From a virus, in the IMG/VR virus record IMGVR_UViG_3300037224_000012, positions 1 through 27,431 of that record: a DNA stretch of 27,431 nucleotides; one strand, 5' to 3'. Shown here in pieces: positions 8,782-23,170 of this stretch. The notes under the pieces were generated by a model, which was given only the letters and a program-made list of their open reading frames with translations, searched no databases and was not told where the DNA came from. The stretch's first letter is position 1; every line of letters begins with the position of its first letter. The translations under genes were made by a program, and so were the position numbers.

Positions 8782-9714
8782 TTATGCGCTGGCTCCACTG
8801 ATGAGGTAAATATTTGGAGTGCTGGTAGCGTGCCACTTTGGTACTGCTATGCAATCATAGCCGTGTCTTAAGGTGGTGATCCAGCCCTCATCGTGTAGTC
8901 TGGTTGTCTCAGACATAGGGACTGTGGCGGGTGGTATATACTGAGCCGCTCTAACTGTCTGTGCACCTTCCAAGAACATGACAGCGTTAGTGCTCAGAGC
9001 ATCGCTAGCGGTTAACTGCTCAATATCGATGTACTGCGCTCCGTCTGCATTCATGTATGGAGTATACGGGTACCAATTGATGTTCCAGGTATCCTTGAGG
9101 TAATCCTTCAGGTTTTGCTGCACGTTATGAATGAGATCAAGTTGATTGATTCCAGACATAATCTTGCTTGGGAATACCATGCCGTAAGCACTGGATTCCG
9201 GGTTTGTGCCTGTTTTGGACATTATGGTTTCAATACCTGTCATAATATCCTTCTCTACGTCTCCGGCTGCTACGTTCCAATATCCGGTAGCGGCGGAGGT
9301 GTTTTGATATCTAGCGACAAGCTCAGTTATCAGCTTATAGGTGTGGACTGCTCCGAAATATTTCAGAGCCATAGCCGCGCCTTCAGAGGCCATGTCATCT
9401 ACGTAGATGTTTGCCCTTGTGGAATCAAGAATCTTGTAGCTAAACTTCTGAATCTTGATATCCTTGGTGACTCTGGTTTTGTTCCACCTGGTGGTAACTG
9501 GCGGGGTCTCAAGAGCTACATCCATCTGGCCGGGGTTCCCGTGCGTGGTAAAGAACTCTATTCTCTGAATGTCTACAGTCTTGGAGGGAAAAGCCTTATC
9601 AAGAACAGATTCTACCTGCATATCCAGGTTAATCAGTTCAAGAGCCTTCGGACCCCATCCTCTGATGTACTTATCGAGCTGCGCGGTTGTCATTGCGCCC
9701 ATTTGCATAGCCAT
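8782..9714 (-). CDS. Major capsid protein, HK97 fold
   Basis: The 310-residue product lies after the protease-scaffold and decoration genes, the standard place and size. It has a helical N-terminal arm, an extended stretch (KTVDIQRIEFFTTHGNPGQ), a long helix region (DDMASEGAAMALKYFGAVHTYKL) like the spine helix, and AYGMVFPSKIMSGI in a P-domain-like segment, followed by a beta-rich end. The fold call is by these features and context, not a strict motif. The ATG at 9714 has GGAGAGATGAATT before it. Residues 5-20 (MGAMTTAQLDKYIRGW) recur at the start of the small protein at 11985-12251. Confidence 0.8.
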   Translation of the reverse strand: MAMQMGAMTTAQLDKYIRGWGPKALELINLDMQVESVLDKAFPSKTVDIQRIEFFTTHGNPGQMDVALETPPVTTRWNKTRVTKDIKIQKFSYKILDSTRANIYVDDMASEGAAMALKYFGAVHTYKLITELVARYQNTSAATGYWNVAAGDVEKDIMTGIETIMSKTGTNPESSAYGMVFPSKIMSGINQLDLIHNVQQNLKDYLKDTWNINWYPYTPYMNADGAQYIDIEQLTASDALSTNAVMFLEGAQTVRAAQYIPPATVPMSETTRLHDEGWITTLRHGYDCIAVPKWHATSTPNIYLISGASA

Positions 9715-9756
9715 AATTCATCTCTCCTTAATAATTTTGTTATTATGTATTTATGT

Positions 9757-10197
9757 TTAAGTGCTGCCTATTGGACAATCGAGAACGACTTCCATCATTA
9801 CCCCATCGGTATAGGCTTTGTTATCTTTTCCGACATAGTGACCTACTGCCTTAGGGGTGGAGGTTGTGGATGTATTCGCGTATCCGTTATTGGTTTGGCC
9901 TACGTAAACCTTGTCTCCAAACTGCATAGTTATAGATCCATCGCAGGGTACCAGAACGATAGCTCCAGACCCAATTAGGAAGAACGGATGATTATCCCCG
10001 ACTACCTTTGCTACTGCAGATCCTAGTTGAACATCTATACTAGAATAAGCTGCCACTACGAGGACTGTATCGGTTACACCGTTGCATACTGTCATTCTTC
10101 CGCTGCCGTCGTCTTTGTAGAGCTTACCCTCGTAGATAATTTCTGCAGCGCACGGCAGGCTCATCATTTTAACGCCTGTAAATCTTACATCTGCCAT
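9757..10197 (-). CDS. Decoration-like head protein, copy 2
   Basis: The 146-residue product is a paralogue of the next gene upstream: SLPCAAEIIYEGKLYK here against SLPCAAEAIVEGYVYK there, followed in both by a G-x-M-T strand, an AVGHYVG / PIGHYAG pattern late in the sequence, and an ending with EVVLDCPIG or EVYLDVQPG. Small beta proteins beginning with a P-A-x-x-I-x-x-G strand and lying between scaffold and capsid genes are commonly head decoration proteins. It follows the pattern, but the family is not certain. Confidence 0.6.
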   Translation of the reverse strand: MADVRFTGVKMMSLPCAAEIIYEGKLYKDDGSGRMTVCNGVTDTVLVVAAYSSIDVQLGSAVAKVVGDNHPFFLIGSGAIVLVPCDGSITMQFGDKVYVGQTNNGYANTSTTSTPKAVGHYVGKDNKAYTDGVMMEVVLDCPIGST

Positions 10198-10700: not shown

Positions 10701-11147
10701 TTAAGCTGCTCTATGCGCCCTCATAAGAGCTAGTGCGTCCTCTGTCTTAGGGAGAGCCGCGAGAACTTCATCAGCATTCTCTACAACGTCCTTAAGAGGA
10801 AGGTCTACGTGCTCCGCGCCTAAGGATACCGCTCCGTTAGTTACTGGTGCGGGTACTAAAAGTTCTCCGAGTCTCTTGGCGTGGTTCATTACCAGTTCCA
10901 TCGGGTCTTTCATGAAGACTGGCATAAGCTCAGTTTTCGCCAGCTCCCTAGTAGACTCCGGGAATTGAGCCAGGAATCCTGTTTCCTTAGCTGCAAGTTC
11001 ATACTTAGCTACTGCCGCCTTCGCGGTAATAAGTTCCTGGTTAACGGTCTCAATAGTCTTTGCCTGCTCAGTCATCTTTGCAGTCATGCTATTTACCTGG
11101 ATACCCATTGCTTCTAACTGCTTCTTCATATCTTCAATCTCTGCCAT
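10701..11147 (-). CDS. Scaffold protein from an internal in-frame start
   Basis: GGAGG (11160-11156) lies 8 bases before an in-frame ATG (11147-11145) that begins MAEIEDMKKQLEAMG, exactly where the coiled-coil scaffold domain starts. Translation from here would give a 148-residue scaffold lacking the protease. The same design is known in lambda (C and Nu3). Making the scaffold in excess over the protease fits head assembly stoichiometry. Confidence 0.6.
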   Translation of the reverse strand: MAEIEDMKKQLEAMGIQVNSMTAKMTEQAKTIETVNQELITAKAAVAKYELAAKETGFLAQFPESTRELAKTELMPVFMKDPMELVMNHAKRLGELLVPAPVTNGAVSLGAEHVDLPLKDVVENADEVLAALPKTEDALALMRAHRAA

Positions 11148-11855
11148 ATTATTTGCCTCCGTTTGTGAATTTTGTGAAACTACAACGTCAGAATCTTTTT
11201 TATCTGCCGCTTTTATTGCTTTTTTCTTTTTCATCTGGTTGCCTTCGTCGTCTAGCTTCGGACTTCCGTCTTCATTTAAGACTAGCTCTTCATCGTCGGC
11301 GCAATTGCATACTTTATCTTTCTTAGAATTCATCGATAAACCACATCCCTGATCTGGCGTACATGCCGGGTTAGCTACTATGGCAATGTTATTTGGCGCA
11401 TAGTTCTGCTCTTCTTTAATATATTTTACTCCGTCTAGTTCGCCTTTGGTATCTATTAAATCGCAAAAGTAAGTACCAGATACTCCTTTTACTTCTCCGT
11501 TTTCTATCGCAGTTAATAACCAATCCGGGCAAAGATCCTCATAAATGTGAGCATCTCCTACTATCTTTTCGCCCTTCATATCCCAATGCGCATTAGTAAC
11601 GGCTCCAACTCTGAAAGTTTTATTAGTAACTATAACACTATCAGGGTGGTCTTGTATGCTGGTTGCATCTTTAATTACAATTGGAATATTCCACCACCTA
11701 GCGGATTTTTCTAATGCTTTTGGTGTTTTTAGATAATCATTAAACACGCCTGCCTTCATGATGACAATAGGCTTAATAATTTCTCCATTTTTCTTTTCCA
11801 TTTTGTTTGAGTTAAGACAAATACTTTCACTAGATTCCACTTTTGTTATGATCAT
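10701..11855 (-). CDS. DUF2213-type capsid maturation protease fused to scaffold domain
   Basis: The ATG at 11855 is chosen because GGAGGTGAAAAG lies just before it, giving 384 residues. Residues about 28-180 contain IMKAGVFNDYLKTPKALEKSARWW, DHPDSVIVTNKTFRVGAVTN and NGEVKGVSGTYFCDL, in the style of DUF2213 phage proteins, a family of likely prohead proteases. A charged, Lys-rich linker follows. Residues 237-300 form a coiled coil (EIEDMKKQLEAMGIQV onwards) and the end is helical, as in scaffolds. An internal start before the coil is listed separately. The order protease, decoration, capsid supports the role. Confidence 0.75.
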   Translation of the reverse strand: MIITKVESSESICLNSNKMEKKNGEIIKPIVIMKAGVFNDYLKTPKALEKSARWWNIPIVIKDATSIQDHPDSVIVTNKTFRVGAVTNAHWDMKGEKIVGDAHIYEDLCPDWLLTAIENGEVKGVSGTYFCDLIDTKGELDGVKYIKEEQNYAPNNIAIVANPACTPDQGCGLSMNSKKDKVCNCADDEELVLNEDGSPKLDDEGNQMKKKKAIKAADKKDSDVVVSQNSQTEANNMAEIEDMKKQLEAMGIQVNSMTAKMTEQAKTIETVNQELITAKAAVAKYELAAKETGFLAQFPESTRELAKTELMPVFMKDPMELVMNHAKRLGELLVPAPVTNGAVSLGAEHVDLPLKDVVENADEVLAALPKTEDALALMRAHRAA

Positions 11856-11992
11856 CTTTTCACCTCCACTAAAATTGAGTGGCCGCAATAGTGCGGTTTC
11901 ATGCTGCATCCTATGCACCAGTGACGCGCATTGCAATTTTCGCAGCATAGTTTATGACAAATTAAGTCAGGATGCAGATCACATTTAAACAT
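11852..11992 (-). CDS. Cys/His-rich zinc microprotein (46 residues)
   Basis: The small frame has eight Cys and five His residues in 46 positions, including CDLHPDLICH, CCENC and CIGC. The spacing suggests two zinc sites packed as in B-box or small treble-clef modules. Its start overlaps the end of the upstream gene by 8 bases and its TGA overlaps the ATG of the protease-scaffold gene in ATGA, so translation is probably coupled to it. Function unknown; metal binding is inferred from the residues. Confidence 0.65.
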   Translation of the reverse strand: MFKCDLHPDLICHKLCCENCNARHWCIGCSMKPHYCGHSILVEVKR

Positions 11993-12251
11993 ATTTACCT
12001 CGTGTTCCTACTAATGATCTAGCGGCTAATACTCCTTTTGCGTGTTCTAGTTCATCAAAAGGCTTACTAGATCCTCCGCCTGAGCCTTCGCAAAACATGA
12101 GGTTCATATCGTGTTTAGCCTGCTCAATATGGCTATTCTTAACTGCTTCAAAATCAGGCCTGTTATTCTTCTTAGCTTTCCGCCTCATCCAGCCTTTAGA
12201 ATATCTGCCAATCTGAGCCGTTGTCATTGCGCCCATACCTGTATCACTCAT
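11985..12251 (-). CDS. Small protein sharing the capsid protein's N-terminal peptide
   Basis: The ATG at 12251 gives 88 residues; an in-frame TTG at 12260 would overlap the upstream stop. Residues 6-21, MGAMTTAQIGRYSKGW, match capsid residues 5-20, MGAMTTAQLDKYIRGW, and 17 bases (ATGGGCGCAATGACAAC) are identical. After that the proteins diverge: here a basic stretch (RRKAKKNNRP), a helical middle, a Gly/Ser linker and a short end. It could be a capsid-gene remnant fused to another sequence, or a protein that uses the same assembly peptide. No known family is evident. Confidence 0.6.
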   Translation of the reverse strand: MSDTGMGAMTTAQIGRYSKGWMRRKAKKNNRPDFEAVKNSHIEQAKHDMNLMFCEGSGGGSSKPFDELEHAKGVLAARSLVGTRGKYV

Positions 12252-12256
12252 AAAAA

Positions 12257-13027
12257 TCAACTCTTTGGTAATCCCATATTTACGACTGGTATACTTGAAG
12301 CATCCGATTTAGTGATCTTTACTAATGGATCGGCAATGGCAGATACATGCCAGCCTATCTTATCTCCTACTAGCACCTCATAGTTCCGCCTGGGCTTCAA
12401 GGGTATGATTAGATCTACCTGGCTACCAAAGCGCACGGCAGAGAACGGATAACCTTGAGCTATAAATTTATCATTTTCTTTGAAGGGAATTATAGCGCCT
12501 ACGTCTGCATCGGCTATTTGGACAATATAATATTCTTGTCCTATTTCGTTATCAAAAACCGTGTTAAGCATTCGCTCGTTATAAAAGAGGTACTCCATGC
12601 CTTCGGTATCGGGGTGATCATTTGCCTCTATGAGTGCCAGCTCTACAGATGTCATAGTCATATTATCAATCTTCAGCTTTGGAAGATCCTTAAACGACAG
12701 GTAGCCGGAACTTGGCATAAAATTAATATGCTCATCATACATTGTCATGAATATACCGATTACTATAAATTCATCATCATATAGATCGGTTCTAATCAAG
12801 TCTTTGATTTTCAAAGGGGTTCCATGAACATTTATGATTTCTTCCCGGTTTTTGATATGCTTAACGTAGAGGATAACACCGTTGGCTGGGCTAAATAATA
12901 CCTCTTTGTTGATGAAAATTGGAACTAGGCTTTCCCGGTGAAATCCTTTCTTTAAGATATCTGCCATAGACATCTTTCGGATTTCCGCTATCTCCGGGGA
13001 TACAAGCCAGTCCTTCAGAAGTTGCAT
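12257..13027 (-). CDS. Phosphatidylserine decarboxylase-like protein
   Basis: The ATG at 13027 is chosen because GAGGTATCCATA precedes it and it overlaps the upstream stop by one base, giving 256 residues. The family pattern is present in order: FSPANGVIL (45-53), VHGTPLKIKDLI (67-78), FMTMYDEHINFMPSSGYL (93-110) with His100, VGAIIPF (176-182) and RFGSQVDLIIPL (199-210), where Gly-Ser is the self-cleavage site that makes the pyruvoyl group. In known enzymes the SPxDG motif carries the catalytic Asp; here it is Asn49. Archaeal relatives decarboxylate archaetidylserine, and other relatives act on free amino acids, so the substrate is open. It is co-translated with the DDAH-like enzyme. Confidence 0.75.
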   Translation of the reverse strand: MQLLKDWLVSPEIAEIRKMSMADILKKGFHRESLVPIFINKEVLFSPANGVILYVKHIKNREEIINVHGTPLKIKDLIRTDLYDDEFIVIGIFMTMYDEHINFMPSSGYLSFKDLPKLKIDNMTMTSVELALIEANDHPDTEGMEYLFYNERMLNTVFDNEIGQEYYIVQIADADVGAIIPFKENDKFIAQGYPFSAVRFGSQVDLIIPLKPRRNYEVLVGDKIGWHVSAIADPLVKITKSDASSIPVVNMGLPKS

Positions 13028-13896
13028 TATGGATACCTCAGTTTTACTTTGTCGTAGGTAAGATGCATACACATGCAACTAAGAGCCGCGCCAGACTTAG
13101 CATATTCTGACAAATCGATGAAAACCGGCTGCAGGCCATACTTTCTGCAAATATTAACTACTTCGTTGTTCTGTGGATCTATTGCGTCGGTGTTAAAGTT
13201 GACTGCCGCGCTAGTGAAAAACACTCCGCCGATCCTTAAACTATTACACATAGAATCATAGGCAAATCTCTTAGAGACTGGTATGACAGTAGCAACTTTT
13301 TCAATTGTATCAATTGTCTTCTTATCAATAGTCTCAGTGCTTAAGAGAACGGTCTCAGTATCTAACATGAATATGCTACAATCAACGTGGTAGAGATAAG
13401 GATCAGATTCTTTGAGAGGAATAATTTTCATATCATATTTATCTTCCATCCAGTTAAGAGCCGCCTTAGATGTTCTTTGTCCAAAGCCTCCAACGTAAAT
13501 GTTATCTCGGAGCCACTTCAATTCAGCTTCGCCCTCAAAATCGTAGGGACACTGAATATAGTCATAGTCTAAGGCCTCTAATAGATCATCTACGACCTTT
13601 TCTTCCCCGGCCCTGCCTTCTGCCTTCCAGTTAGCTAAAACTGCCGTCTTATCGAGGTGAGGTAAGACACAAGCCACGTTAGCCACATAGACTTGATCCT
13701 GCAGGCCCTTCTTAGGTGGAAGTTGCCACACAAAAGCTTGCTGAGAAATAGCAGTATATAAATCCCAATATTGTTTCATTGCAATATCGATATTAACTTC
13801 TATCTCATCCTCCGGGTATGCCTTCATCCAATCATTATTTTTTATTTCACTAGACATATACTTCGGTGGACACATAACTATTTCTATTTTCGTCAC
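13027..13896 (-). CDS. DDAH / arginine-deiminase-superfamily (amidinotransferase fold) enzyme
   Basis: GTG start at 13896 with a near-perfect GGAGGTGA site. The 289 residues show the pentein pattern of guanidino-modifying enzymes: VYVANVACVLP (69-79), DFEGEAELKWL (119-129) in place of the F-E-G-x-G-D stretch, YVGGFGQRTSKAAL (134-147), DPYLYHVDCSIFML (165-178) with His170, and KSGAALSCMCMHL (267-279) with the likely nucleophile Cys274. Such enzymes hydrolyse or transfer amidino groups of arginine, methylarginines or related compounds. The substrate cannot be told from this sequence. It lies inside head genes, directly before the decarboxylase-like gene. Confidence 0.75.
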   Translation of the reverse strand: MTKIEIVMCPPKYMSSEIKNNDWMKAYPEDEIEVNIDIAMKQYWDLYTAISQQAFVWQLPPKKGLQDQVYVANVACVLPHLDKTAVLANWKAEGRAGEEKVVDDLLEALDYDYIQCPYDFEGEAELKWLRDNIYVGGFGQRTSKAALNWMEDKYDMKIIPLKESDPYLYHVDCSIFMLDTETVLLSTETIDKKTIDTIEKVATVIPVSKRFAYDSMCNSLRIGGVFFTSAAVNFNTDAIDPQNNEVVNICRKYGLQPVFIDLSEYAKSGAALSCMCMHLTYDKVKLRYP

Positions 13897-13900
13897 TCAC

Positions 13901-14047
13901 TCACCTCCCTGTAAACATTCCAAAGCAATCTTTGCATTCGTAGTGCTTCGGTAATCCTGTTTTTCCTTCATATTCCCTTTGTGGCAGTAGTACCACGTTA
14001 GCACTACCGCACTGAGGACATTTTAATATAACGTGGTCTACATACAT
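13901..14047 (-). CDS. Zinc-ribbon microprotein (48 residues)
   Basis: The product has CPQC at 10-13 and CKDC at 38-41 with a basic, beta-prone middle, which fits a single zinc ribbon. The ATG lies 1 base after the stop of the secreted protein gene, and its end supplies the GGAGGTGA ribosome site of the DDAH-like gene. Function unknown. Confidence 0.6.
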   Translation of the reverse strand: MYVDHVILKCPQCGSANVVLLPQREYEGKTGLPKHYECKDCFGMFTGR

Positions 14048-14048
14048 C

Positions 14049-14813
14049 TTAGTAACCTACTGCATGAAGTTGATTCACGTACCAAGTCCAAGCCACATTA
14101 ATATCTGTGGTACTGGATGGACCTATTTTGTGAGACATTATGTTAGTTTCATCGGTGGAGAATCTCATTCCGACCGCTGTTAATCCCATACTCATAGAAT
14201 ACTCATACTGTCCGGGGATCAGTGCACCGTAAGCATCATGCCCTGGCATACAAGTCACTGTTATTATGGTCGTGGGATCATTGGCCCATGTACCGGTATT
14301 AATATCAGTCTCTACCGTTCTCAGTGGAATAAGAGCCGCCTTAAATTGCGCTTCATTAAACACATTTGTAAACACCGGGGCTTTTAGATCCTGGTTTAGC
14401 ATTCCTGTTATGACTACCTTAGGTGATGTCGTATCGTAGCCGGTTGGAGTGACCATTGAGGTATCCACTGTTGCGGGTTTATCTTGTGTTGCTGGTGCTA
14501 CTGTTTTGGCCGGGGTGTTATTAACTGCGACTGTGGCCGGAGTCGCTGTAGTTGCAGTATTTGTTGGTATTTCGTATACTGTTTGCTCTGCTCCGGGGTC
14601 ATATATTCCTAGTGGTGTTGTCATTGATGTATCTATGCCAGGTGTTGCCACTACTGGAGTAACGTTATCAACTACTGGAGATACATTATCAACTACTGGT
14701 GACATTCCCGATAGAAATCCAGCTATTCCACTGGTATAGATATAATCATTATGCGCCGTTGCTGGCATACAGAACATAAACATAATCGCAATTAAAATTA
14801 TATACTTCATCAT
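14049..14813 (-). CDS. Secreted Thr/Pro-rich protein
   Basis: A signal peptide is clear: MMKYIILIAIMFMFCMPATA, with likely cleavage after residue 20. The next 110 residues are low complexity and rich in Thr, Pro, Ala and Val, with SPVVDNV twice in tandem (38-51) and DTSMTTPLG / DTSMVTPTG (61, 117). Such linkers are often glycosylated in archaea. The last 120 residues form a globular domain with NDPTTIITVTCMPGHDAYGA and a Trp-Tyr end. GAGGTGAA precedes a double ATG. It overlaps the upstream gene by 4 bases. A surface or virion role is inferred from export; the family is unknown. Confidence 0.65.
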   Translation of the reverse strand: MMKYIILIAIMFMFCMPATAHNDYIYTSGIAGFLSGMSPVVDNVSPVVDNVTPVVATPGIDTSMTTPLGIYDPGAEQTVYEIPTNTATTATPATVAVNNTPAKTVAPATQDKPATVDTSMVTPTGYDTTSPKVVITGMLNQDLKAPVFTNVFNEAQFKAALIPLRTVETDINTGTWANDPTTIITVTCMPGHDAYGALIPGQYEYSMSMGLTAVGMRFSTDETNIMSHKIGPSSTTDINVAWTWYVNQLHAVGY

Positions 14814-14922: not shown

Positions 14923-15060
14923 TCACTTCTTTAATTTCCTTATCCTGAATCCGTTGCAGGGAAATACCGGATTATTATTAATCTTTGGACATCTCCCTGG
15001 TAGATTTATTTTCCAGTAGCATAGTGCACAAGTTCCCCATAGGTTCTTAGGTACTTTCAT
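14923..15060 (-). CDS. Cys-containing microprotein (45 residues)
   Basis: The product has CALC at 11-14, then single Cys at 24 and 35, and a Lys/Arg-rich end. Four Cys suggest a metal site, but the spacing is not a standard ribbon. The start overlaps the end of the MuF-like gene by 14 bases. No family recognised. Confidence 0.45.
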   Translation of the reverse strand: MKVPKNLWGTCALCYWKINLPGRCPKINNNPVFPCNGFRIRKLKK

Positions 15061-15637
15061 CGATGTACTCCAGCCAGCATTTGCATCCTATTCCTTCAGG
15101 AATCATCAACCCATTACTAAAGGCCTCATTTAGTGGCCGGGATTCGCCCTCAATTAGGTGAGCCTCCCTCGGAACTATACTGTTTCCCCGGTGCCAGACT
15201 TTAGTAATTTTGGCGTCGGTTTCCTTAGCATAGTTTTGGACATAATCATCTGTGCCATTAACACTAGCGGTATGCTGCTCGTTATCCCAAATCAGTTTAG
15301 CACGTTCCGGGCTGCTTATAAAAGAGTTATCGAGAAGGGTTTGAAATTCCGGGAATGACATATCTTTGCCCTGCTCCAGCAAAAGCTTGAAGTTGGCCTT
15401 ATCCGTGTCATCGAGGGTTTTAACTAACTCTAAACCGTGCTCTTGATAGTATTTCATTACAGAGCTGGAGTTTAGAGAGTAATCGAGGTTAAGGCTTGCG
15501 GCCCCAACCTTTTGGCCGTCCATGTAATCCTGGGCTACTGATTTTTCCCAAACATAATTCCATACCTTTTCGTTAAGTTCGTTAACTTTATCCTTAACAC
15601 CTTTCCATAAATTATCGAAATTCAATATCACCAACAC
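15047..15637 (-). CDS. MuF / SPP1 gp7-like minor head protein
   Basis: The 196-residue product follows the portal gene, the standard place for this family. The C-terminal 55 residues carry [29 protein letters not shown] and [14 protein letters not shown], matching the W-x-x-x-x-x-x-V-R-x-x-H ... G ... P ... C-x-C pattern of the phage Mu F domain. The first 120 residues are helical. SPP1 gp7 binds the portal and helps DNA release. The start is uncertain: GTG at 15637, GTG at 15631 and TTG at 15625 all lie after an AAGGTG stretch. The start abuts the AP2 remnant on the other strand. Confidence 0.75.
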
Positions 15638-15645
15638 CTTCGCAA

Positions 15646-15768
15646 ATTAACGCTAACCATAAAGTTATTAATTTAGGTCAATTTGAATCTGAGATTGACG
15701 CAGCAAAAGCTTATGATAAAGCTGCTAAAAAATACTTTGGAGAATATGCTAGATTAAATAATATCTAA
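15646..15768 (+). pseudogene. AP2-domain remnant of a homing endonuclease
   Basis: This plus-strand frame reads [20 protein letters not shown] followed by [12 protein letters not shown] and a stop at 15766-15768. That is the second half of an AP2 DNA-binding domain, as found at the C-terminus of HNH-AP2 homing endonucleases. It has no start codon or HNH part here, so it is a truncated leftover. It fills almost the whole gap between the portal stop (15770) and the MuF-like start, and lies opposite in direction to all virion genes. Confidence 0.8.
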
Positions 15769-15769
15769 C

Positions 15770-17575
15770 TTAGCTCCAAGGATATTTTTCTTCTTCTGGT
15801 AAAAAACCGGCTTCTTTTGCCCATACTGCGAATAGGTGCGCTTTCTCTGCCATTAGCTTCTCCAGCTCGGCAGGGGTCTTTTTATCAGATGCATTAGTTA
15901 TAAAGTTTTCGACAAGAGAGTTTTTGAGTGGCTTCTCTTGTTTGTCTTTTACCACTTCTCCCTTGTCGGTCTTAACGTTCTTTCCGCCTTTGCCTTTAAC
16001 GTCTTTAGTTATAGTGACATCAACAGGTTTGACCTGAGTACCGACCGGGTTCTTTCCTGGAGGTACCGCGCCTTTCTTTTGCGCTAGTCCTGGCGGTACT
16101 TGGCCGGGTTGCCCTGGCGGTACGCCTGCCTTAGATGCTAAGGTCGCGTTAAACTGATCCTGCTTAGCTTGTGCGTCGGATGCATCCTTTTCTTCTTTGG
16201 CTGTTTTGTCTTCCTCGGACATTGGCGGTTTGCCTGCAATCTCCCTAATCTCATCCTCAGTGAATAGATTAGTCATACCAAAGGCTATTGCAGCCCGCTT
16301 GAATAGCTCGGTCTCATCTGTCGGGTCTAACTCTTTCCATTCAACTTCAACTGTCCAGCCCTCGTAGCCGTTCTCTTCTAATATGGTATTCCACATCTCA
16401 ATAAACGTCTTGGCTACTCGCTCTCTCCAGCCCTCGGCAATCATCATGAGTAGTTCGAGACCTGCAGCGTTAGACTTTCCGAGTCCACCACTTCCACCGT
16501 TTTGAGACTCTAAGAAGTCCCTCGGCACTAAAGCCTTTAAAACTCTCTCTTCATAACTCGTTATTACCTGCATAGGGTCTATACAGAGTTTATAATCTAG
16601 TGGCACCGGCGTTATGCATGATGGCGCTACCATAGCGTTATTTTTGCCGTGGTTAACTGCGATCTTCTTTCCCATTTCAAAAGCTGTAGCGGGACTCCAT
16701 AAGCCTTGACCCTGGGCTGCCGGGTTGTCTCTGTATTCTTCAATTTTGATCCAGAGTAACGGCGCACCGGCCCGGTGTACTGTTTCCATTAGTGCCATAT
16801 CTGCATAATCAAGCTTCCTGATTAGAGGCATTACTTTTTGAACAAATGAGTCGCCGTCTACTTGTTCTGAGATTTCATCCTTAAGATGAATCACATTTTT
16901 TGTCGGAATCTGGATAGGTACGGATATCTGGTTTTGCTTCTGCCAATACTCAAAGGTATTGGTCTGCTTGTCGAAGACAATACCATAAAGAATATCACCC
17001 GTTACATATCTCTGGATATCCATTCTTCCTATAGGTCTTTCACAAAAAGAATAAGCTGGAAGTCTCTTGAATATCACCGGGGCTGTCCAATCTTCAATTG
17101 TGCCCTCGATCCGCTCGAAAACCGCGCTGCCATAGATAAATTCGTCGTAAGTAGCCTGCCTCATTCTGAGAATAGTCTTTACTACTTTACTATCTATCCT
17201 ATCTATTTTGCTTTGGACTTCATCAATGTCATCCTCGGGAATGTCTTTTGCTTTATCCTCTGGAGGAATTGGTTTGATCTTTGCGCCACTAAATGCAAAG
17301 TCATCAATCTGTCTTAGTATTCTTGAAAGTAGATAGTGCTTCCCTGCGTGTCGCACAGTGTCCACCGTTATCAGTGGATTGATAAAGTAAATATCAGTAT
17401 TAGGGAATTCCATACCCAAAGAACTATTTTTATTCGCATTCATCAGTGCGTTTGGGTCATTTTTTATTGGTTCATAACGTGTACCATTTGGTAGCACTAA
17501 AACATAATCATCTGCAAGATTTGGCTGATTAATAGCCGGGTCGTGCGATTTCTGTTTAGCTATATTCCTTGGCAA
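15770..17575 (-). CDS. Portal protein
   Basis: TTG start at 17575, supported by AGGGGGTGAG at good spacing, giving 601 residues. The order TerL, portal, MuF is standard. The core (about 80-460) includes YGSAVFERIEGTIEDW, RLPAYSFCERP, NVIHLKDE and then GAPLLWIKIEEY, with a mixed alpha/beta clip and stem pattern and a long helix (VITSYEERVLKALVPRDFLE) before a Gly-rich loop, as in phage portals. The C-terminal 130 residues are an extension rich in Pro, Gly and Lys (GVPPGQPGQVPPG), likely flexible, ending in a helix. The portal forms the ring through which DNA enters and leaves. Confidence 0.8.
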   Translation of the reverse strand: MPRNIAKQKSHDPAINQPNLADDYVLVLPNGTRYEPIKNDPNALMNANKNSSLGMEFPNTDIYFINPLITVDTVRHAGKHYLLSRILRQIDDFAFSGAKIKPIPPEDKAKDIPEDDIDEVQSKIDRIDSKVVKTILRMRQATYDEFIYGSAVFERIEGTIEDWTAPVIFKRLPAYSFCERPIGRMDIQRYVTGDILYGIVFDKQTNTFEYWQKQNQISVPIQIPTKNVIHLKDEISEQVDGDSFVQKVMPLIRKLDYADMALMETVHRAGAPLLWIKIEEYRDNPAAQGQGLWSPATAFEMGKKIAVNHGKNNAMVAPSCITPVPLDYKLCIDPMQVITSYEERVLKALVPRDFLESQNGGSGGLGKSNAAGLELLMMIAEGWRERVAKTFIEMWNTILEENGYEGWTVEVEWKELDPTDETELFKRAAIAFGMTNLFTEDEIREIAGKPPMSEEDKTAKEEKDASDAQAKQDQFNATLASKAGVPPGQPGQVPPGLAQKKGAVPPGKNPVGTQVKPVDVTITKDVKGKGGKNVKTDKGEVVKDKQEKPLKNSLVENFITNASDKKTPAELEKLMAEKAHLFAVWAKEAGFLPEEEKYPWS

Positions 17576-22244: not shown

Positions 22245-22469
22245 TTATATTAGTATATAACTTTCTTGAACGTTCTTGCATCGCATGCACCGGTAAAACT
22301 TCTCTTGTTTTCCATCAGCTACTTTACCATAACTTATGAAGTGCGTTATCTGCATATTGCACCTCGGACAAAAGGTTATGGCCGACTCTTGGCGGGCCTT
22401 TAGAACATTTCGCCGGGTCTCTATGCTATGCTCATTTTTAATATAATAATCCCTCGAATATGTATTCAT
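22245..22469 (-). CDS. Zinc-ribbon protein (74 residues)
   Basis: CPRC at 34-37 and CMRC at 61-64 enclose a beta-prone segment (THFISYGKVADGKQEKFYR), a typical zinc ribbon of the transcription-factor type. The basic first 30 residues may contact nucleic acid. Its ATG overlaps the thyA stop in ATGA, so it is translated together with thyA. Confidence 0.6.
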   Translation of the reverse strand: MNTYSRDYYIKNEHSIETRRNVLKARQESAITFCPRCNMQITHFISYGKVADGKQEKFYRCMRCKNVQESYILI

Positions 22470-23170
22470 GATATTGCACCTCCATCTACTAAATGAACTC
22501 CATTAACCCGTTCAAATAACTTGTTGGCTTCAAGCATTCCATCTTTAAGACCGTATGCCAGTATGCACGCATCAGTTATTAGTGATACATAGATATGAGG
22601 TGCACTACTGATTGTTGTTATTCTTCCAATATCAATATGTCCTAGTACTTCCGTTGATATATACTTTGCCATCGCGGCTATTCCGTAAAAATTCTGAGGC
22701 CACGCTTGAAACATATCATTCGACCTGAAGTATACCGCCGTGCTTATTTTATCCCCGTATATCTTGAAGTCCATTAGCATCATACAGGGGGGATACTCAC
22801 TCATGTTATCTTGAACTGGTCGCCAGGTTATAGCTACTGCCTGCCTGCTTGCAGGATCGTTACGTAGCTTATTTATAACGCTATGTATTTGACCAAAGGC
22901 CTGCAACCTTGAGCCGTAGGTATAAACAAAACCACGATCATTAAACGGCTCTAGGTATTGATCTGCATAAAGCTCTAATTGATATTTATTCCACCCTGAG
23001 CCTTCAGGTATAATATCCTCCAACGGGTGAGATACCGACAGCATCAAAGGCTCATCCAGCTCTACAACGTACTGGTTATGATGAGGGATGTATTTTATAT
23101 CCCCCATACTAATAATCCTTCTTAAAGCTGGAGTCCAAACGTCGCCAATGGTCCTCCCTATTATCTCCAT
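22466..23170 (-). CDS. thyA: Thymidylate synthase ThyA
   Basis: The 234 residues carry the ThyA motifs: YGSRL (85-89), ASRQAVAITW (107-116) with the phosphate-binding Arg109, PPCMMLMDF (127-135) with catalytic Cys129, YFRSNDMFQAWPQN (147-160), and SSAPHIY (188-194). Asn160 is kept, which in this superfamily favours dUMP over dCMP. The short length and the FRSNDM..AW pattern resemble ThyA of methanogens rather than the bacterial form. It makes dTMP from dUMP with a methylene-folate or methylene-methanopterin donor. GAGG lies 14 bases before the start. It supports viral DNA synthesis together with PolB. Confidence 0.9.
   Translation of the reverse strand: MEIIGRTIGDVWTPALRRIISMGDIKYIPHHNQYVVELDEPLMLSVSHPLEDIIPEGSGWNKYQLELYADQYLEPFNDRGFVYTYGSRLQAFGQIHSVINKLRNDPASRQAVAITWRPVQDNMSEYPPCMMLMDFKIYGDKISTAVYFRSNDMFQAWPQNFYGIAAMAKYISTEVLGHIDIGRITTISSAPHIYVSLITDACILAYGLKDGMLEANKLFERVNGVHLVDGGAIS

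Follow-up and report, generated by a model that had tools for sequence, protein, structure and literature searches.

An arginine-dihydrolase-like gene and a phosphatidylserine-decarboxylase-like gene paired in viral head operons: a possible viral route from arginine to a small amine

The locus

The window, that is, the whole stretch of DNA analysed, is a virus record of 27,431 bases that is near-identical to part of a 61,939-base IMG/VR contig. Two genes on its minus strand are the subject of this analysis. Gene 1 (13027..13896; coding 13030-13896, stop 13027-13029) encodes a predicted arginine-dihydrolase-like, guanidino-group-modifying enzyme of 289 aa. It begins with a GTG at 13896, just 5' of which the Shine-Dalgarno-like stretch GGGAGGTGA can be read on the same strand (13901..13909), and ends with a TAA stop at 13029-13027. 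Gene 2 (12257..13027; coding 12260-13027, stop 12257-12259) encodes a putative PF02666 pyruvoyl-type decarboxylase of 256 aa, with its ATG at 13027-13025 and GAGGT, likewise Shine-Dalgarno-like, upstream; a 273-aa version in the ORF list, beginning at a TTG at 13078, simply reflects an upstream alternative start. The genes share one base, the final A of the gene 1 TAA, within a TAATG stop/start overlap (13025..13029, minus strand). Both ORFs and this overlap had been given in a preliminary description of the DNA, and ORF calls and the junction sequence agree with it.

Upstream of the pair lies a gene for a MuF-like head morphogenesis protein (15047..15637, minus strand), identified by a head morphogenesis PHROG (3e-6), while its Pfam Phage_Mu_F match of 0.04 is below the cut-off. 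Downstream is a DUF2213/head-maturation-protease-like and scaffold-like gene (10701..11948, minus strand), matched by DUF2213 and by head-maturation-protease PHROGs. The pair had been placed between these two genes. It is indeed in the head block, surrounded by terminase, portal, MuF-like and protease/scaffold-like genes, but two small genes (14049-14813 and 11985-12260) that had been left out also lie in between. The second of these is a 91-aa ORF that measures 214 aa in a sister contig, and short stretches of the window (11999-12094 and 15638-15803) are replaced or missing relative to sister contigs. The PHROG families matched by genes 1 and 2 are listed as being of unknown function.

Conservation of the pair

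A three-sequence gene 1 alignment, run against 2.9 million viral contigs, returned 169 relatives, and 80 of these were retained; single-sequence scans returned only near-identical copies, and alignment-based scans were needed. Gene 2 lies downstream of gene 1, nearly always directly, in all 80 retained loci, which supports the earlier proposal that the two enzymes belong to a single pathway. Its profile matches in 79 of them, and the 80th contig ends 85 bases on, with gene 2 already starting (MAQYLEDWLETEVEKW...). In one locus (L077), the genes are parted by about 0.7-0.9 kb. Such pairing is far beyond chance.

The junction is also conserved. Exactly one base is shared in 76 of the 91 viral loci with both genes, some of which come from near-identical contigs, and TAATG is found at 43 of 50 distinct viral junctions. 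Shine-Dalgarno-like sequences occur at only two of these 50, suggesting that gene 2 may rely on ribosomes reinitiating once gene 1 has been read, although their scarcity could instead reflect hosts that do not use them. The pair is probably translation-coupled. Purifying selection acts on the two genes (median dN/dS 0.17-0.18). In trees, each family forms a fully supported clade, gene 1 apart from ArgZ-like outgroups and gene 2 apart from canonical phosphatidylserine decarboxylase (PSD) outgroups; relationships deep in the trees are poorly resolved, and the window copies sit on long branches.

Among annotated phages, tblastn gave 47 records for gene 1 and 45 for gene 2; the deposited labels are amidinotransferase and phosphatidylserine decarboxylase. 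Both genes are present in Campylobacter Fletchervirus (about 40 records) and six Bacteroides phages, and gene 1 alone is represented by one distant Xanthomonas match. They are adjacent in Bacteroides phage SJC03. About 42 kb separates them in Fletchervirus NCTC12673, where gene 2 adjoins a homing endonuclease gene and lies some 8.5 kb from gp23. Side-by-side conservation, which the preliminary description had set against lone genes in random places, is therefore favoured, with Fletchervirus as the exception.

The surroundings of the pair differ between virus groups. A large uncultured group has the gene order terminase, gp20 portal, three small genes, gp21-type protease, scaffold-like gene, gp23 capsid, gene 1, gene 2, PhoH-like gene and neck genes, with Pfam matches identifying gp20 (2e-69), protease S77 (5e-24), gp23 (1e-77) and PhoH (1e-63). 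Of 87 loci, 65 have the T4-type capsid gene gp23 directly upstream of gene 1, and 64 have PhoH after gene 2. The pair in the window likewise lies within a head block, this one of MuF type and unlike the gp23 type, indicating that two unrelated head operons hold the same module. Nevertheless, this location is not universal, given the split in Fletchervirus and the nucleotide-metabolism setting in Bacteroides phages; in the latter, and in viral contigs L097 and L105, the pair is in a replication/nucleotide region rather than a head operon.

Two loci carry an additional ORF between the module genes. In L096 this is a gene of the agmatine-deiminase/PAD family (9121-9981; PF04371, 1.7e-24) with a GGLLRC catalytic-type motif. 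In L105 it is a 176-aa ORF (9460-9987) with paired CxxC motifs, HNH-like by eye.

Gene 1 resembles arginine dihydrolases

Dimethylargininase and arginine dihydrolase models match gene 1 at 4e-27 and 2e-24, both under curated cut-offs; for the curated NCBIfam arginine dihydrolase model, the score is 86.2 bits against a cut-off of 450. Its only sequence relatives in the PDB are ArgZ/AgrE (1.4e-30). The AlphaFold model (pLDDT 88.5) has the GME alpha/beta propeller fold, as seen in its match to ArgZ/AgrE, which make up all 13 top matches (TM 0.74-0.84, E about 1e-20). DDAH (TM about 0.70) comes next, followed by amidinotransferases and arginine deiminase (TM 0.65 for the latter).

Alignment places the gene 1 active site at D67, N73, R95, E121, R141, H170, D172 and C274. 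Together with N21, these correspond to AgrE N22 (N21), D65 (D67), N71 (N73), R90 (R95), E118 (E121), R139 (R141), H168 (H170), D170 (D172) and C264 (C274). All eight, as well as N218, are invariant in 78 gene 1 sequences, and so is N21, bar one truncated row. The catalytic Cys, His and Glu (C274, H170 and E121) and the guanidino-binding Asp pair (D67 and D172) are thus kept throughout. N73 occupies the position of ArgZ Asn71, which a study of ArgZ reportedly found to be the determinant for dihydrolase activity; by its PDB title, 6juz is the N71S mutant. Residue roles in ArgZ/AgrE were taken in part from PDB titles and PMC11659421.

Arginine deiminases retain an Asp two positions past the catalytic His, where DDAH has Lys (PMC11659421). 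In gene 1 this residue is D172 in 78 of 78 sequences and the DDAH-type Lys is absent, which disfavours a DDAH role. The earlier assignment to a DDAH/arginine-deiminase fold was right about a guanidino-modifying enzyme, but the DDAH label gives way to an arginine-dihydrolase-like one in view of the PDB relatives, the fold and D172. Arg residues bind the substrate carboxylate in arginine deiminase and DDAH alike (PMC11659421), and by position the corresponding pair in gene 1 would be R95 and R141. Because this pair is kept, agmatine is disfavoured as the gene 1 substrate.

Gene 1 therefore shares with ArgZ/AgrE of the cyanobacterial ornithine-ammonia cycle its fold and every active-site and substrate residue that was mapped, the one at Asn71 among them, but differs in being a stand-alone protein that lacks the fused ornithine cyclodeaminase domain and has about 22-24% identity. 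It also carries FEGEA(D/E) where ArgZ carries FEGAGD, with a family-specific E123 absent in ArgZ; this and the score below the dihydrolase cut-off suggest that its substrate may differ. Overall, gene 1 appears to encode a hydrolase of arginine or a close analogue that is more dihydrolase-like than DDAH-like, with moderate support for arginine itself as the substrate.

Gene 2 is a divergent relative of phosphatidylserine decarboxylase

Gene 2 had been described as phosphatidylserine-decarboxylase-like, and a PF02666 match at E 1.8e-18 (67.4 bits against a gathering score of 22) supports this, as does an alignment to E. coli PSD (5e-11). Against the NCBIfam PSD/ASD models, the best score is 48.8 bits and does not reach the cut-off of 225. 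Only PSD and PsiD match the structural model (pLDDT 83.4) at E below 0.001, with TM values of about 0.4 that indicate a family-level and not a close likeness. The predicted pyruvoyl-forming residue is S202, in a GSQ motif, and H100, which aligns with E. coli PSD H144, is invariant. The preliminary description had suggested profile searches and structure prediction for both proteins and a look at their catalytic residues; C274 and H170 of gene 1 are invariant, as above, and G201-S202 of gene 2 is invariant in 71 sequences.

With type II phosphatidyl-/archaetidylserine decarboxylases, gene 2 has in common the fold family, a PADG-like motif, an HxN motif and the GS pyruvoyl site. It differs in its separate clade, in a family-specific insert with invariant M125 and E129, in having DxDV (D173-x-D175) where type II PSDs have GxxARR, and in its missing membrane segment: no type II segment was found in 71 module proteins, whose hydropathy maxima are 0.84-1.42, while three intact canonical type II PSDs reach 2.29-2.60. 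Judged by its sequence, gene 2 is a soluble, Asp-rich offshoot of PSD. The loss of basic residues and gain of acidic ones would fit a switch of substrate, with a cationic amino acid taking the place of the anionic headgroup of a lipid, and D173-x-D175 may contact the substrate. A comparable case is PsiD, a PF02666 tryptophan decarboxylase and thus a PSD-family enzyme acting on a free amino acid, as proposed for gene 2. Its fold match is of low TM, its identity to gene 2 is 12-14%, and a different substrate class is expected. Ornithine is not a known substrate of any PF02666 enzyme.

The window copy of gene 2 has N49 where an Asp is usual (E. coli D90), as well as F103 where most members have Arg. 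These changes could impair its self-processing, D90 being part of the self-cleavage triad of E. coli PSD, although one canonical PSD in the comparison (L120) has His at the D90 position.

Bacterial copies

Cellular genomes seldom carry the module. Of some 1,000 bacterial genomes scanned, those of two phyla (347 and 396 genomes) had no copies beyond the seed genome. A third phylum gave one further copy, in a virus-like stretch, while the Xenorhabdus group gave nine strong matches in 30 genomes. A divergent adjacent pair in one bacterial assembly (L130, assembly G147) lies in a viral-looking stretch that also has a dUTPase-like ORF. Each of six module-bearing bacterial genomes that were checked has a second, canonical PF02666 gene. 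A MATE exporter adjoins the module in L112 and L113 and is one gene away in L111, and an ABC exporter follows it in Xenorhabdus; in L115, the next gene encodes a membrane protein that no NCBIfam model names. Exporters near most bacterial copies point to a small soluble product.

A proposed pathway and its alternatives

The two genes very probably serve one arginine-type small-molecule pathway. The evidence consists of homology, residue conservation, co-conservation, the junction, genomic location and purifying selection. In the reading we prefer, to which we give a probability of about 0.48, this is a virus-adapted pathway from arginine through ornithine to putrescine. The gene 1 product would hydrolyse the guanidino group of arginine (Cys nucleophile, His/Glu base), yielding ornithine and releasing two NH3 and CO2, and the gene 2 product, a pyruvoyl enzyme of PSD descent, would convert ornithine to putrescine. 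This chemistry is inferred. The third arginine-family enzyme between the genes in L096 argues for arginine chemistry, and the missing membrane segment and the change from GxxARR to DxDV argue for a cationic, soluble gene 2 substrate. The ornithine and putrescine steps are less firmly indicated than arginine as a substrate, and the gene 2 substrate is the weak step of the pathway. Nor is the MATE exporter beside some bacterial copies an obvious fit to a putrescine route.

The amine would be made late, as capsids fill, and would neutralise the charge of packaged DNA or sustain late DNA synthesis. Such timing is suggested by the genes' position, which in several virus groups is the late head operon, though late DNA synthesis or translation may just as well be what the amine serves. 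DNA packaging as the purpose, suggested by location and literature, is rated below the pathway itself. Polyamines are present in phage virions, including those of T4, and neutralise nucleic-acid charge; T4 DNA synthesis drops in polyamine-depleted cells, and normal DNA synthesis and maturation of T4 require polyamines (PMC7226272). A host mutant in spermidine synthesis does not support phage JG004 (PMC3120641). Arginine or polyamine chemistry with a possible DNA-condensing role, among the options in the preliminary description, is the best reading. There was no sign of an extended spermidine pathway in these viruses: neither AdoMetDC nor spermidine synthase genes were found in 12 viral records, many of which are possibly fragments.

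Viral putrescine genes have been described, namely pyruvoyl-dependent ODC/ADC in phages and arginase with ODC in giant viruses, in a study that reports no arginase in phages (Li et al. 2023, PMC9992855). Those enzymes are AdoMetDC-derived, PLP-type or arginase, and neither a phosphatidylserine-type decarboxylase nor a dihydrolase is mentioned there (PMC9992855). No paper naming the gene 1/gene 2 pair was found in the literature searched, though papers beyond it may do so. The pair would be a variant of virus-encoded amine synthesis with an unusual genomic location and, probably, a new substrate class for the PSD family. In its fullest form, the proposal is a new pathway, mainly spread by viruses and wired into capsid operons, in which an arginine dihydrolase and a PSD turned soluble ornithine decarboxylase make DNA counter-ions at packaging; we hold this only tentatively, at well short of even odds.

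Among the alternatives, the same pair could turn arginine or a close analogue into another small cationic metabolite (agmatine-derived, cadaverine-like or other) that bacteria export and viruses use otherwise. The exporters beside most bacterial copies, the family-specific E123 of gene 1 and the extra agmatine-deiminase-like gene in L096 speak for such a product, which we consider less likely than putrescine; retention of all mapped arginine-handling residues of ArgZ, including the carboxylate-binding Arg pair (PMC11659421), counts against agmatine as the gene 1 substrate. A role in lipid headgroup remodelling, another option raised initially, would make gene 2 a true phosphatidyl-/archaetidylserine decarboxylase altering host membranes, with gene 1 unrelated or feeding it. 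The PF02666 match, a weak AS_decarb match and the deposited phage labels are in its favour, but it is improbable in view of the absent membrane segment, the loss of GxxARR, the separate canonical PSD in all six module-bearing bacterial genomes and the strict pairing with an arginine-type enzyme.

Arginine dihydrolases of the ArgZ family consume arginine and free two ammonia, and the pair might deplete arginine or release ammonia to take over the host or counter its defences, the decarboxylase serving to draw the reaction onward. This is highly improbable, as early takeover genes are not usually found in a late head operon and a PADLOC search gave no match; the same search disfavours a defence role for the pair. 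Supply of a precursor for a polyamine-type hypermodified base protecting viral DNA would suit the thymidylate-synthase-like gene of the window virus and the position of the Bacteroides phage pair among nucleotide genes. We rate its chances as slightest of all, since no base-modification enzyme was seen adjoining the pair and most copies are in head operons rather than DNA-metabolism clusters.

The arginine-to-putrescine proposal makes a prediction that departs from the current separate labels, namely that the pair acts as one pathway turning arginine into a diamine. If true, this would give putrescine a new enzyme route, extend the PSD family to a new class of substrate and tie capsid filling to metabolite supply through gene order in unrelated viruses. 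It also cautions that viral PF02666 genes should not be read as lipid-metabolism genes.

Other features of the window and its sister contigs

The window encodes a thymidylate synthase (22466-23170) that scores near a methanogen-type model (168.5 bits against a cut-off of 174.6), which, together with a family B polymerase, hints at a methanogen host. In the 61.9-kb sister contig (L141:13222-15630), the anaerobic ribonucleotide reductase NrdD is divided into two ORFs (275 and 395 aa) parted by an HNH-like ORF, resembling an intron or homing-endonuclease insertion. A sister viral contig carries IS200/IS605 transposase and TnpB genes (L139:1687-3199) and a second TnpB-like ORF (L139:15738-16859).
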